From: Candidatus Dormiibacterota bacterium
GTDB taxonomy: Bacteria; Chloroflexota; Dormibacteria; CF-121
Direction of reading: 5' to 3'
Length of the DNA stretch: 64,000 nucleotides
Assembly (NCBI GenBank): GCA_035544955.1
Contig: DASZZN010000014.1
Span: forward strand, 124,001 to 188,000
Shown here: piece by piece, positions 9,974 to 14,929 of the stretch
Layout of the letters: the number at the start of each line of letters is the position of its first letter
How positions within the stretch are numbered: the first letter of the stretch is position 1
Position numbers and translations under genes: made by a program
Notes under the pieces: generated by a model
The model's input: the letters and a program-made list of their open reading frames with translations, nothing else
Databases searched by the model: none
Told to the model about the DNA's origin: nothing

Positions 9974-10423
9974 GTGCTCTTCAACATCGTGAAGTTCTTG
10001 CACATCCTGTTTGTGATCACCGCCTTTGGGGCCAACATCACCTACGGCGTCTGGCAGGCCCGCGGCGCGATTGATCCCGCGCACGAGTCGTTCGCGCTGC
10101 GCGGCGTGAAGTTCCTCGACGACCAGGTCGCCAACCCGGCTTACCTGATGGTCCTGGTCACCGGTCTCACGATGGCCTGGTGGCACTGGTCATACACGAC
10201 GCACTGGATCATGGCCGCCATCGTCCTCTTCGTGGCAGTGTTCATCTTCGCGCTGGCCGTCTATTCACCGGCGCTCACTCGCCAGATCGAGGCGCTGGAG
10301 CGCGACGGTGCGCAATCGGCCGCGTATCGGAGCGCCAACCTGCGAGCGACGATCTATGGAATCGGCGTCATGGTGCCGATCCTGGCGATCCTCTTCCTGA
10401 TGGTCACCAAGCCAAGTCTGTAA
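9974..10423 (+). CDS. Four-helix integral membrane protein (DUF2269-like)
   Basis: A 149-aa protein starting at GTG 9974 (VLFNIVKFLHILFVITAFGANITYG), with four hydrophobic segments and conserved-looking FLHILF and KFLDDQVANPAYLMVLVTGL. This matches the general plan of DUF2269 membrane proteins, which place a histidine in the first helix. The family call is tentative and the function is unknown. It is transcribed divergently from the SRPBCC gene through a shared -10 element. Confidence 0.7.
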   Translation: MLFNIVKFLHILFVITAFGANITYGVWQARGAIDPAHESFALRGVKFLDDQVANPAYLMVLVTGLTMAWWHWSYTTHWIMAAIVLFVAVFIFALAVYSPALTRQIEALERDGAQSAAYRSANLRATIYGIGVMVPILAILFLMVTKPSL

Positions 10424-10514
10424 ACCCCCACCCCGACCCTCCCCCAGAGGGGGAGGGTAAGAGTGCGGTCCCTCCCCCGCAAGTGGGGGAGGGGTGAGAG
10501 CGAGTGGGTCGGGT
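10424..10514. repeat. Pair of inverted REP-like palindromes between convergent genes
   Basis: Two GC palindromes: 10436-10458 (10-bp arms ACCCTCCCCC/GGGGGAGGGT, AGA loop) and 10470-10493 (CCCTCCCCC/GGGGGAGGG, 6-nt loop). Outer arms GACCC and GGGTC reach the stop codons of both flanking genes. The same repeat recurs at 18267-18300 and 53642-53675. It probably acts as a bidirectional terminator or mRNA 3' end here. Confidence 0.6.
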
Positions 10515-11456
10515 TTACGCGTTGCCGGCGAGGTCGGAAAGCTTCGTGTATTTCCCGTACTTGCCGGATTTCAGAACGGCGAAAGCATTCTGGTCGACGG
10601 CGGGTGACGGATCGAGCGCCTTGAGGCCCTTCGGTGACAGGTAGGTGTTCAGTTTTGCGACCGTGGCGGCCGCGTCAGGGGTTGCCTCGCCCTTCCCCTT
10701 GTTCTGGAACTCAAGCTCGGTTGCCGCGTAGTCGGGGAAGAGGTCGATATCGCCTTTCTCGAGTGCCGGCTCGACGACCTCACGGCTCCCCAGGTTCAGC
10801 TTGAAGTTGATCGTGTAACCCTTGCCCTTGAGGGCCTGTCCGTAGATCTGGGCGATGATGGCGCTCTCCGGGAAGTTGAGCGCACCAACGGTGATCGTGC
10901 CCGTCGACGAGCCCGAGGTCGAGGTGTAGCCATGATCCGTCAGCCATTTCTTGGCGATCACGTCCGGATCCTGCTTATCGACATCGGAGCTCTTGTTGAG
11001 CGCGATCAGGTCCTGGGTTGTGAGCTTGCCATCGATTTCGTTGAGTAACGCCGTGACGTCGGGTGTCGCCTTGCTCGTTTTGATCAGCGGCACCACGTTG
11101 TCTGCGTTCTGCAGGTGCTTGTCATCCTGCAGCTGGACGTACTTGCCGGTGGAGTAGGCGCTGTCGCTCGAGAAGATCAGGCCCAGGTCGATATCCCCGC
11201 GGTCGAGCGCCGCTTTGGTCAGAGGACCGCCCGCATCGAGCGGCCTGAAAGTCTTGAAGTGTAGGCCGTAGACCCTGACCAGGCCAGCCTGGCAGAACGG
11301 CCGCGTCGGGCACTCAGCTGGACCACCCAACGTCATCTGGCTCGCGATCTGACTGGGACTGGAGCTTGAGGTCCCACCTGTCGATCCGCACGATGTCGTC
11401 ACGAGTCCCAGCGCGACCATGCTCGCGCCGAGCACAAGGATTCGATTCATCCGCAT
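10515..11456 (-). CDS. Glycine betaine/choline-type ABC binding lipoprotein (OpuCC/ProX family), apparently circularly permuted
   Basis: A 313-aa lipoprotein (signal to C23 in LVTTSC) captures osmoprotectant outside the cell for the permeases upstream in the operon. The order of its parts is unusual. After a Ser-rich linker comes what is normally the C-terminal half of the family (MTLGGPAECPTRPF at 41, FRPLDAGGPLTKAAL, QLQDDKHLQNADNVVP, LTTQDLIALN, to DHGY at 177). A Thr/Ser/Gly linker follows, then the usual N-terminal half (TITVGALNFPES at 187, LNLGSREVVEPAL, GDIDLFPDYAAT). The protein ends KYTKLSDLAGNA, which would normally precede the LGGP block. ATG 11456 is chosen over GTG 11468 because AGGAGG directly abuts the GTG. 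Confidence 0.85.
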   Translation of the reverse strand: MRMNRILVLGASMVALGLVTTSCGSTGGTSSSSPSQIASQMTLGGPAECPTRPFCQAGLVRVYGLHFKTFRPLDAGGPLTKAALDRGDIDLGLIFSSDSAYSTGKYVQLQDDKHLQNADNVVPLIKTSKATPDVTALLNEIDGKLTTQDLIALNKSSDVDKQDPDVIAKKWLTDHGYTSTSGSSTGTITVGALNFPESAIIAQIYGQALKGKGYTINFKLNLGSREVVEPALEKGDIDLFPDYAATELEFQNKGKGEATPDAAATVAKLNTYLSPKGLKALDPSPAVDQNAFAVLKSGKYGKYTKLSDLAGNA

Positions 11457-11490
11457 TTGCCTCGCCACCTCCTGAATATTGCGCCGATGT

Positions 11491-12198
11491 TTACGCCGCC
11501 GACAGACTTGTTGACCTAACCTCCTGAGTGGTTGTTTCGCTACGCAGACCTATTGGGGTCGTGATTCGTTGCAGGCCAGTGAGGCTCACCTCGACCGCGA
11601 TCGAGAGCAGTGCCACCAGCAGTGCACCCGCAAAGAGTTGAACCGTGTCCCGCTGGGCCAGGCCATCAACGATGAATCGGCCAAGCCCGCCCCACGCCAC
11701 CAGGGCGGCGAGCGTGGCGGTGGCGACGATGTTGACCGCTGAGGTGCGCACGCCGGCCATGATCAGCGGCGCGGCGATGGGCAGCTCGACTTGCCACAGG
11801 ACGGCACGATCGCGCATGCCCATCCCCTTCGCCGCCTCACGTACATCGGCATCCACCTCTCGCATTCCGATGTAGCTGTTGGTGACCATCGGTGGTATGC
11901 CGAGCGCAACCAGGGCAACGAAGGCCGGCCAGAAGCCGATGCCCACCAACTGAACCGCGAACACCAGTAGCGCGAATGAGGGAACGGCGCGACCGACGTT
12001 GGAGACGTTGATCGCCAGGTTGCCCCAGCGGCCGATGTGCCCAATCGTGATCCCGATGGGCAGGGCGATCAGGGCGGCGACGGCAAGGGACGCCGCCGAC
12101 ATGTACACGTGCTCGAACAACCGGTTCGGAATGCCGAAATCGCCCTGCCAGTGTGAGCCGTCGAGGAACCATTGCAGCACTTGGCCGATAAAGCTCAT
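11491..12198 (-). CDS. Osmoprotectant ABC transporter permease (OpuCB/OpuCD type)
   Basis: A 235-aa inner-membrane permease with five to six hydrophobic segments and the EAA loop REAAKGMGMRDRAVLWQVELPIAAPLIMAG, which contacts the ATPase. The opening GIPNRLFEHVYMSAASLAVAALIALPIGITIG is typical of OpuC permeases. Its ATG overlaps the stop of the other permease (ATGA). The binding-protein gene follows downstream. Confidence 0.9.
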   Translation of the reverse strand: MSFIGQVLQWFLDGSHWQGDFGIPNRLFEHVYMSAASLAVAALIALPIGITIGHIGRWGNLAINVSNVGRAVPSFALLVFAVQLVGIGFWPAFVALVALGIPPMVTNSYIGMREVDADVREAAKGMGMRDRAVLWQVELPIAAPLIMAGVRTSAVNIVATATLAALVAWGGLGRFIVDGLAQRDTVQLFAGALLVALLSIAVEVSLTGLQRITTPIGLRSETTTQEVRSTSLSAA

Positions 12199-12878
12199 GC
12201 CGCCGATCTCCCTCGCGACCAGGGGGTCACCAGCCGCTGCAAGCCGGACAGGCTGACATCAGCGACGATTGCCAGAACGACCGAAAGCAGGGTGCCGACG
12301 ACAAGCGGCGTCTTGAAGTCGCGGATGAGCCCGTCGAGGATCAGGCTGCCGAGGCCACCTTCCCCGATGAGGGCGGTGACCGTGACCAGCCCGATCGTGG
12401 TGACCGTGGCGATCCGGATGCCGGCCATGATGGCGGGAAGGGCGAGTGGCAGGTCGACCCGAAGCAGCTCGGCGAACGGTCGGTATCCCATGCCGCGCGC
12501 CGCCTCCCGGACCTCCAGCGGCACCGCGTCCATCCCCACCACGATGTTGCGGATCAGGATCAAGAGTGTGTAGCTGACCAGCCCGATCTCCGCCGTCAGG
12601 AAGGTGAGCCCGGTGAATGGAATCAAGATGGCGAACAGCGCCAGCGATGGGATGGTGTAGAGGATGCCGGTGAGGGAGAAGATGGGGCCGCGCAGTAGGC
12701 GTTGTCGCCAGGCAAGCAGCCCGAGAGGTATGGCGATCAGCAGCCCGACGCCAACCGCGATGACCGTCAGCTCAATGTGTTGGGTCAGGGCTTCGCGGAT
12801 GACCGGCACGTGTCCCGATACCCACGACCACCGGATCCATGGGTCTTCGACCGCCCCCACGACCCCGGTGGCGAGCAT
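12195..12878 (-). CDS. Osmoprotectant ABC transporter permease (OpuCB/OpuCD type)
   Basis: A 227-aa second permease, paralogous to its neighbour, with the EAA loop REAARGMGYRPFAELLRVDLPLALPAIMAGIR. First gene of the minus-strand permease/permease/binding-protein operon. TAGCAT ends 6 nt before the ATG, so the transcript appears leaderless. The ATPase gene is divergent, 55 bp away. Confidence 0.9.
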   Translation of the reverse strand: MLATGVVGAVEDPWIRWSWVSGHVPVIREALTQHIELTVIAVGVGLLIAIPLGLLAWRQRLLRGPIFSLTGILYTIPSLALFAILIPFTGLTFLTAEIGLVSYTLLILIRNIVVGMDAVPLEVREAARGMGYRPFAELLRVDLPLALPAIMAGIRIATVTTIGLVTVTALIGEGGLGSLILDGLIRDFKTPLVVGTLLSVVLAIVADVSLSGLQRLVTPWSRGRSAA

Positions 12879-12933: not shown

Positions 12934-14049
12934 ATGATTCGGCTGGAACGCGTCACCAAGCGCTATCCGGGCGGCCAGGTGGCCGTCCGGGAGCTGACGA
13001 TCGAGTTCCCCACCGGCCAGCTGACGATGCTGGTCGGGCCGTCGGGCTGCGGGAAGACCACCACCCTCAAGATGATCAACCGGCTGATCGAGCCGACCGA
13101 GGGTCGGATCTTCCACGATAAGCAGGACGTCACCCACGCCGACCCCGTCGCGCTGCGGCTGGTGATGGGCTACGTCATTCAGAACGTCGGCCTGTTTCCG
13201 CACCTGAGCATCGGCGACAACGTTGCCACCGTGCCCAGGCTGCTCCACTGGGACAAAGCGAGGATCCAGCGGCGTGTCACCGAACTGCTCGAGCTTGTTG
13301 GCCTCGATCCGAAGCAATTTGCGCACCGATATCCGCACCAGCTCTCCGGCGGGCAGCGGCAGCGCGTTGGCGTGGCGCGTGCGTTGGGTGCCGACCCGCC
13401 CGTCTTACTGATGGATGAGCCGTTTGGCGCCATCGACCGCATCGCAAGGGAGCGGCTGCAGAACGAGTTCCTCAGGATCCAGCGGGAGGTGCGCAAGACC
13501 GTCATCTTCGTGACCCACGACATCGACGAGGCGATCAAGCTGGGGGACCGGATCGCGGTCATGAACGCCGGCCGCCTCGAGCAGTACGACACGCCGGCGG
13601 CCATCCTGGCAAAGCCGGCCTCTGACCTGGTCATCGATCTCCTCGGGCCCGACCGCGGCCTCAAGCGGTTGTCGGTCACGCCCATCGACCTCAATGCGTT
13701 GGAGCAGCCGCCCGTCGTCCACCCCGACGACTCGCTGGCCGACGCCCGTCGCCTGCTCGACAGCCGCTGGACCCGGGTGGTCGTCCTCGATCAAAGCGGC
13801 AAACCGGTCGGCGAGCTCGACCGAGAGCTGGCCGTTGGCGATGGGCGGGTTGCGGATCGCGCCCGTCCGCTCGATGCGATCATCGGCGCGGATCGGACAT
13901 TGTTCGACGCCTTCTCGCAGATGCTGATCCATCAGGCCGGCTGGGTGGCGGTGGTGGACGGCGATAGGTTCCGCGGCGTCCTCACGCCGCAAGCGTTCGT
14001 GGCGGCGATCCAGCGTGTCCCGGCGGAGCTGGAAGGCGCACGTCGCTGA
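12934..14049 (+). CDS. opuCA: Osmoprotectant ABC transporter ATP-binding protein with CBS domains (OpuCA type)
   Basis: A 371-aa ATPase with Walker A GPSGCGKTTT, signature LSGGQRQRVG, Walker B LLMDEPFGA and the switch histidine in VTHDIDEAI. After residue about 245 come two CBS-like segments (PPVVHPDDSLADARRLLDSRWTRVVVLD and the closing AGWVAVVDGDRFRGVLTP), which in OpuA/OpuC sense ionic strength or nucleotides. It works with the divergent permeases and the binding protein. The GYVIQNVGLFPH Q-loop is specific for the quaternary-amine-type subfamily. Confidence 0.92.
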   Translation: MIRLERVTKRYPGGQVAVRELTIEFPTGQLTMLVGPSGCGKTTTLKMINRLIEPTEGRIFHDKQDVTHADPVALRLVMGYVIQNVGLFPHLSIGDNVATVPRLLHWDKARIQRRVTELLELVGLDPKQFAHRYPHQLSGGQRQRVGVARALGADPPVLLMDEPFGAIDRIARERLQNEFLRIQREVRKTVIFVTHDIDEAIKLGDRIAVMNAGRLEQYDTPAAILAKPASDLVIDLLGPDRGLKRLSVTPIDLNALEQPPVVHPDDSLADARRLLDSRWTRVVVLDQSGKPVGELDRELAVGDGRVADRARPLDAIIGADRTLFDAFSQMLIHQAGWVAVVDGDRFRGVLTPQAFVAAIQRVPAELEGARR

Positions 14050-14067: not shown

Positions 14068-14859
14068 CTATCGGCTAGGGACGGCGCTCTCCACGACGGC
14101 CATCTTCGCCCGGATGTCGTCGTAGGCTCGGTCGTCGATCGCGGTGAAGCGTCGGATCAGACCGCCGGCGAGAACGGCTCGGCTCTCGGGCTCGTGCCCC
14201 AGCTCGCAGAGGGCTGCGCCGATACGAGCCTCCACTGCATCGGAAACCCTGGCCGTCGCGGCGGCGAGGGGGATGGTTGAGGGGCCGAGGGTGGCAATCA
14301 CACGGATCTCACCGGCGAGGTCCCGATTTCGCAGGCGCTCCACGCCGAGCACCTGGGAGTCGATCGCGGACGCGTCGATTTCGCCTGTAATTACCTGTCG
14401 GATCGACTCCTGGTGCCGGCCTGAGAAGGTCCGGCGGCCGAAGAACGCCTCCGTTTCGCCCATCTGCAGCAGGTGATAGCGGACCAGCAGGCAGCCCGAG
14501 TGGGAGTCCGGGTCGTTGTAGGCCCAGCTTCGCCCGCGGAGGTCGCCGAACGAACGAAACGGGCTGTCGCGCCGGACGATGACGTCGGAGAAATACACCG
14601 GCCGGTCCTGGTAGCGAGCCTCGTCTAGCACCGGAGCCGCCAGGGGTCGCAGCATCCCCGGCCGCTCGCGGCGGAGGCGGACATAGGGAAGCCCACAGAG
14701 GAATGCGACGTCGACCGAGCCATCCCGAAGTTGCTCCCAGTCCTTTCCCTCGACCAGCTGCGCCGGTACCCCGAGCGCCCGGCCGACGCGCGCCGCCACG
14801 TCGGCGTAGACGGAGGTCATGTTCGGCGCGAGGAAGTTCGCGAAAACGAGGGGCTTCAC
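14068..14859 (-). CDS. PhnD-like periplasmic binding protein (phosphate/phosphite/phosphonate type)
   Basis: A 263-aa protein from GTG 14859 (VKPLVFANFLAPNMTSVYADVAARVGRALG). It carries the PhnD-family blocks EQLRDGSVDVAFLCGLPYVRL, YFSDVIVRRDSPFRSFGDLRGRSWAYNDPDSHSG and the closing TAIDDRAYDDIRAK. The conserved SHSG ligand loop is present. No signal peptide or lipobox is visible from this start. No permease or ATPase gene is adjacent, so it may be a cytosolic sensor or an orphan binding protein. It is divergent from the cupin gene. Confidence 0.75.
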   Translation of the reverse strand: MKPLVFANFLAPNMTSVYADVAARVGRALGVPAQLVEGKDWEQLRDGSVDVAFLCGLPYVRLRRERPGMLRPLAAPVLDEARYQDRPVYFSDVIVRRDSPFRSFGDLRGRSWAYNDPDSHSGCLLVRYHLLQMGETEAFFGRRTFSGRHQESIRQVITGEIDASAIDSQVLGVERLRNRDLAGEIRVIATLGPSTIPLAAATARVSDAVEARIGAALCELGHEPESRAVLAGGLIRRFTAIDDRAYDDIRAKMAVVESAVPSR

Positions 14860-14889
14860 GGGCGGGTTGACGGCAGTATTGCACAGAGT

Positions 14890-14907
14890 GGCGCAATTTA
14901 TTGCGCC
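14890..14907. promoter_or_regulatory. 18-bp perfect palindromic operator
   Basis: GGCGCAATTTATTGCGCC: perfect 8-bp arms around TT, in the divergent region between the PhnD-like and cupin genes. Its right arm contains the -35 box (TTGCGC) of the cupin promoter, which fits repression by a dimeric regulator. Confidence 0.55.
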
Positions 14908-14929
14908 GGCCACCGTCTTCTTCTATACT
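14901..14929 (+). promoter_or_regulatory. Promoter of the cupin gene
   Basis: TTGCGC (14901-14906), 17 nt, TATACT (14924-14929). The GTG start lies 20 nt further on. Confidence 0.55.

Follow-up and report, generated by a model that had tools for sequence, protein, structure and literature searches.

Most natural circular permutations on record are ancient and separate proteins with scant sequence likeness. Among the glycine-betaine-binding proteins, one such permutation, between OpuAC (2B4L/2B4M) and ProX, was recognized from structures (CPSARST, PMC2395249), so that an earlier note on the DNA analysed here rightly took changes of order between these two as known; the two forms share less than 24% identity and their divergence is ancient (PMC2395249). 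The ligand cage of OpuAC is Trp-based (PMC9732360). Another example is Tp0684/TpMglB-2 of Treponema pallidum, a permuted, lipid-anchored glucose-binding protein designated "type Ic"; those who described it suggested that a tethered protein may be more prone to permutation (PMC4990184).

The substrate-binding protein (SBP) described here, P0001, is encoded by an uncultured soil bacterium on a stretch of 64,000 nucleotides (the window; features in Table 1), and circular permutation is the sole reading that fits it. Its chain runs from a signal peptide and the lipobox LVTTSC through a short, Ser-rich linker to IASQMTLGGPAECPTRPFC...LTTQDLIALN...KKWLTDHGY, then TSTSGSSTG, and finally TITVGALNFPES...GDIDLFPDYAAT...KYTKLSDLAGNA and the stop codon; that is, the usual C-terminal half (the B half) comes first, directly after the lipoprotein linker, and the usual N-terminal half (the A half) second, just as the earlier note had read it. 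A search of the genome found both halves in one open frame, PF04069 profile positions 112-256 (E 3.6e-20) lying upstream of positions 2-113 (E 1.8e-15), and the whole protein matched the Pfam family in two stretches at E 2.8e-37 (129.1 bits vs a gathering score of 21.2). Its nearest sequence relatives in the PDB (EgtUC, AfProX, OpuBC/OpuCC and YehZ) also align in two stretches, in the order opposite to that of P0001; the full-length collinear alignment with OpuCC/ProX sequences that would have spoken for an ordinary protein was not obtained. The linker that joins the old ends occupies residues 182-190 in P0001 numbering, equal to residues 178-186 counted from the ATG and thus to the position originally noted. 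In unpermuted relatives only some 4-6 residues lie between SDLx and the LGGP strand (e.g. SDLTSVAAQMVLGG), which bears out the claim that the new termini would be contiguous in a normal protein, and these residues reappear at the new N-terminus of P0001 (SQIASQM). The frame begins with ATG, where the start M-R-M is kept in four relatives, and an in-frame GTG upstream at 11468 is also possible.

Table 1. Features of the locus (window coordinates) and the B2-A-B1 proteins of Geodermatophilaceae (locus coordinates)
Feature	Coordinates	Strand	Basis
SBP gene, circularly permuted OpuC/OsmF-type lipoprotein (313 aa + stop)	10515..11456	-	translation, PF04069, conserved start
Signal peptide and lipobox (..LVTTSC), P0001 residues 5-27	11388..11456	-	sequence reading
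N-terminal lipoprotein linker GSTGGTSSSSPSQ, anchor to second lobe	11349..11387	-	sequence and alignment
B half (IASQMTLGGP..DHGY), usually C-terminal; PF04069 positions 112-256	10926..11348	-	profile search
Internal Thr/Ser/Gly linker TSTSGSSTG, old C-terminus to old N-terminus	10899..10925	-	sequence and alignment
A half (TITVGALNFPES..KYTKLSDLAGNA), usually N-terminal; PF04069 positions 2-113	10518..10898	-	profile search
ABC permease (PF00528, ChoW/ProW-like), directly upstream of the SBP gene, same direction	11491..12198	-	domain and synteny
Second ABC permease (PF00528), 4-base overlap with the first	12195..12878	-	domain and synteny
ProV/OpuCA-like ATPase with CBS domain (PF00571), divergent from the permease-SBP operon	12934..14049	+	domain and synteny
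B2-A-B1 SBPs, Geodermatophilaceae	L044:5854-6858, L045, L165:4543-6852, L166:4135-5280, L169		

The predicted fold agrees with this reading. AlphaFold2 was supplied with permuted proteins and with unpermuted relatives split into halves, the latter aiding the folding of each half, and the resulting model of P0001 reached a pLDDT of 86 and a pTM of 0.77. Its top match in VIA-align was B. subtilis OpuAC (2b4m), collinear over 242 residues (Z 19.8, rmsd 3.3) at 14-15% identity to 2b4l/2b4m, the next unrelated matches lying at Z of about 10.8, and Foldseek aligned it to OpuAC-type structures at TM 0.58-0.69. The model of an unpermuted relative from another genus of the family (G016) was, for its part, collinear with EgtUC, AfProX and OpuBC (Z 31-33, 23-28% identity); OpuAC (2b4l/2b4m) was absent from the 50 matches listed for it, an absence that proves nothing alone. 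As modelled, P0001 is an OpuC-family sequence in the OpuAC-type order. The collinearity with 2b4m/2b4l could be taken as a sign that P0001 descends from the same lineage as OpuAC of B. subtilis, its order being ancestral and its likeness to OpuC convergent. However, the identity of 14-15% to OpuAC compares with 65-81% when each half is set against the nearest unpermuted relatives, the profile match to AfProX stands at 1.7e-36, and the protein has one Trp (in KKWL, residue 175) and thus no Trp-based cage; sequence comparison refutes such a descent, which retains practically no credibility.

EgtUC comprises the domains D1 (233-331/445-506) and D2 (341-432) (PMC9732360), and the break was mapped on it through the aligned ranges of the unpermuted model, not through coordinates. 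A position at the first hinge crossing had to be dropped, since the domain limits of EgtUC put the break about 20 residues past this first interlobe crossing, inside lobe D2. The chain is broken in the loop that leads from the SDLA helix into the LGGP strand; the SDLA helix and NAFAVL, a strand of D2, become C-terminal, both interlobe linkers would remain continuous, and the lipid-anchored N-terminus would exit from D2 rather than from D1. The folded body would then be nearly unchanged, with both hinge crossings retained despite the permutation. OpuAC of B. subtilis already differs from OpuC/AfProX by this very break; of the novelty initially seen in it, its occurrence inside the OpuC-type family is what stands.

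Relatives were sought in 101 genomes, in 110 of the class and 400 of the phylum, and in named genome contigs. The permuted gene is present at the same locus in four other species of the genus (G002, G005, G011 and G014), with 87-89% identity; the frame is intact in G000, G002, G011 and G014, and dN/dS among the permutants of the genus is 0.04-0.10, a sign that selection conserves the gene. The search for homologues with the swapped order thus returned intact frames of conserved order in independent assemblies. The copy in G005 (L036:6001-6825) is truncated at its C-terminus by about 37 residues, with hairpin-like sequence directly after it, which reflects either decay, its loss being tolerated there, or an assembly fault. 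Two other explanations of the order can be weighed against these data. First, the relatives are metagenome-assembled genomes, and misassembly of a bin could have produced the order; since no fewer than five separately assembled genomes of the genus show the same order and break, as do other families and phyla, and the sequence is a different one in each, the probability of this is negligible. Second, the gene could be without function, either what decay has left of a tandem pair or a chimera of its two copies, composed of the B half of the first copy and the A half of the second. The likely route of origin does pass through such a state, and the truncated copy in G005 would suit decay. However, the dN/dS values and the intact frames in four genomes speak against it, as does the fact that no leftover copy of either half was found at any Chloroflexota locus examined and no second PF04069 protein in a PF04069 search of the window's genome. 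A remnant, which the earlier note had named as its own counter-explanation, is thus highly improbable, the conservation of the permuted gene having largely ruled it out. We conclude that P0001, assigned by sequence to cluster F-III, is very probably the working lipoprotein SBP of an OpuC/OsmF-type ABC importer, its chain circularly permuted.

The setting of the gene is consistent with this role. The two BPD permeases and the ProV-like CBS ATPase typical of cluster F-III accompany the SBP (the ATPase scores 299 bits against TIGR01186 proV, under the cut-off of 326.6), and since the window SBP is the sole PF04069 protein of its genome, the operon has no alternative SBP candidate of this family. 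Downstream of the gene, between convergent genes, lies a strongly purine/pyrimidine-biased inverted repeat (cccccaccccgaccctcccccagagggggagg..., window 10420-10500) that looks like a terminator or a mobile repeat. On the other side of the operon, at window 14068-14913, stands a lone PhnD-like binding protein gene whose listed frame has no recognizable signal peptide; among the species of the genus this gene shifts relative to the OpuC operon as one block with FAD oxidase and homocysteine methyltransferase-like genes.

In eight further species of the genus (G001, G004, G006-G010 and G013) the protein is unpermuted and about 60% identical. Both versions stand in the same operon, next to the two permeases and the ATPase and for the most part amid the same neighbours; the permeases beside them are about 69-86% identical. 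Half by half, P0001 is 65-81% identical to its nearest unpermuted relatives, and its signal peptide is homologous to those of the unpermuted proteins of the genus (69-79% identity). Trees of the neighbouring genes pair permuted with unpermuted carriers, namely G005 with G004 at 99% support and, with weaker support, G000 with G009/G010 and G011 with G007; trees of the transporter genes likewise mix the two kinds of carrier, their deeper nodes being weak. The permuted SBPs of the genus, on the other hand, form one clade, sister to the unpermuted SBP of G016. Carriers interspersed in the neighbour-gene trees together with a single clade of permuted SBPs imply that SBP versions have been exchanged at one locus. 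The permuted and unpermuted versions thus appear, from these trees, to be exchangeable within the genus, and their swap at one operon position is, of the computational evidence, the strongest hint that the permuted protein would perform the same job. Among the ten plasmid matches listed, the permuted SBP gave just two-piece matches below 60% identity.

The binding pocket was compared with that of AfProX. We take the cage and pocket positions of AfProX to be Y63, Y111, Y190 and Y214, together with R149, T66 and K13. P0001 retains Y63, R149 and T66, and has F in place of Y190, N in place of Y111, A in place of Y214 and L in place of K13. Because the unpermuted relatives carry the same or close changes, the pocket was not altered by the permutation; because the aromatic cage is just partly retained relative to AfProX, the label "osmoprotectant" is not secured. 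P0001 would capture a quaternary-amine-like or related solute and pass it to the two adjacent permeases.

The permutation found in P0001 is real but, as opposed to the lone protein first singled out, it is not a single case. The same order (B-A, type 1) occurs in another family of the class (G059, 64%), in another family of the phylum (G232 and G420, 51-52%), probably also in G316, where the gene lies at a contig end, and in a distant subfamily found in family f2 of the class (G022, G101, G102, G040 and G096), a family in which unpermuted counterparts are common as well. In this f2 subfamily (L097-L102) the internal linker still holds the mature N-terminus, Cys included, of the unpermuted precursor. 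One contig of an f3 genome (L099, G063:C136) holds an f2-type permuted SBP nearly identical to that of G096 and contains Ns; it is possibly foreign to its bin. Beyond the phylum, a strict cut-off yielded type 1 in 6/296 genomes of Actinomycetota. It was read in four Geodermatophilaceae genomes (L161-L164); in the tree, their proteins have as sister L168, which is unpermuted and comes from the same family. A second breakpoint exists in this phylum: in Blastococcus and Modestobacter the chain is cut at the second interlobe crossing and runs B2-A-B1. A query of this type had nearly full-length matches in about 60 of the 79 Geodermatophilaceae genomes sampled, five of them with two adjacent copies. 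As unpermuted SBPs are present too (L167, L168), three orders coexist in this one family.

How many times the order changed was addressed by AU tests of constrained trees from fast searches, covering the type-1 permutants of the main subfamily. Monophyly of all of them was rejected at p of about 1e-54 on the whole alignment and, half by half, at 2e-4 (A half) and 4e-4 (B half). Monophyly of g1 with G059 was rejected on the whole alignment (p 0.011), as was that of G059 with the f21 pair (p 0.001), and that of G232 with G420 was allowed (p 0.40); the A half agreed with the whole alignment, and the B half rejected the full set only (p 0.14 for g1 with G059). The tree of 52 sequences needs 8 changes of order, compared with a mean of 18.7 and a minimum of 13 when labels are shuffled; at least 5 remain when nodes under 80 to 99% support are collapsed, and the distant f2 subfamily, which stands outside this tree, adds at least one. 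With deep nodes weak and the direction not fixed, some of these changes could be reversions.

A single permutation in the distant past that later passed between lineages by horizontal transfer, the unpermuted neighbours being later reversions or replacements, would account for the same breakpoint everywhere and for the similar end motifs (an IAS.M/L start and an SDLAK end in G059, G232 and G420), and both the G232-G420 test and the B-half result for g1 with G059 are compatible with it. The constrained-tree tests nevertheless reject a single origin for the whole permutant set, and for g1 with G059 on the whole alignment; the f2 permutants are a different subfamily; and since reverting also changes the order, the number of changes would not drop. 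We consider a single event unlikely. On these trees, permutation has more than one origin within the SBP family.

As for the route, tandem duplication followed by trimming is the likeliest origin suggested by the sequences. The SBP gene would first duplicate in tandem; the first copy would then lose its A half, its B half would be fused through the lipoprotein linker of the second copy, and the second copy would finally lose its own B half. In all permutants the B half is joined to the A half by a Ser/Gly/Thr-rich linker, the internal linker being of the lipoprotein kind, and those of the f2 permutants still carry CPA.SGSSGGGA, a motif that marks the mature N-termini of unpermuted proteins (L100, permuted, has GCPAASGSSGGGAHVSIGSKGFAEEQLL; L106, unpermuted, has ACPAGSGSSGGGASVSVGSKGFAEEQLL). 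A linker that holds the mature N-terminal region of an unpermuted protein is what duplication, fusion and trimming predict. Adjacent duplicate SBP genes occur in Geodermatophilaceae (L165 and L169); since no A-B-A-B intermediate was seen among the loci examined, we can only infer this route.

Taking these observations further, we lean towards a wider reading, in which OpuC/OsmF-type SBPs are permuted time and again, preferentially at two sites (type 1 separates the SDLA helix from the LGGP strand, type 2 falls at the second interlobe crossing), all three circular orders coexist in bacteria, even in one actinomycetotal family, and a soil genus exchanges versions at one locus as equivalent alleles; what drives this may be the relocation of the tether from D1 to either D2 or the hinge. 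The family would thereby provide a useful natural experiment in protein evolution. Its natural pairs of permuted and unpermuted proteins make it possible to test how permutants arise (the linker remnants point to tandem duplication), whether an altered tether point is selected for, and how sensitive an ABC importer is to which of its SBP lobes is anchored. They also carry a warning, in that profile-based annotation breaks permuted proteins into two partial matches. Biosensors have already been built from this SBP family, and permuted members may serve as scaffolds for them.

The comparison with described systems makes clear in what respect P0001 departs from them. With OpuAC it shares the order of structural elements over the collinear region, and OpuAC (2b4l/2b4m) was not among the sequence matches of P0001 (phmmer E 0.01; profile E 0.1); whereas the OpuAC and ProX forms diverged in the distant past, P0001 remains close to its unpermuted counterparts half by half and both orders occupy the operon of sister species. 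With the members of cluster F-III (OpuBC/OpuCC, A. fulgidus ProX and EgtUC) it shares the sequence family and, likewise, lipoprotein character, two permeases and a CBS-ATPase, but it differs in the order of its halves and in its incomplete aromatic cage; because of the swapped order we class it as a variant permuted by descent and not as an ordinary F-III member. Among NCBIfam models the OsmF/YehZ type (NF049931) fits best, at 64 bits in two stretches of opposite order, far under the cut-off of 400. TpMglB-2 is, like P0001, a natural, conserved, lipid-anchored permuted SBP, yet it has a type I fold, a different break that adds a fourth crossover and another ligand, and close unpermuted orthologues have not been described for it. 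Type Ic denotes a type I fold whose N lobe has had its first three strands moved to the C-terminus, and P0001 falls outside it, best matching the OpuAC type (type II) with its break elsewhere. Permutation inside the OpuC/OsmF family was described in none of the open papers that a literature search covered. Permuted binding proteins are thus known as such; what is new here is that the permutation is recent and repeated, and that permuted and unpermuted versions are swapped at the level of a genus.
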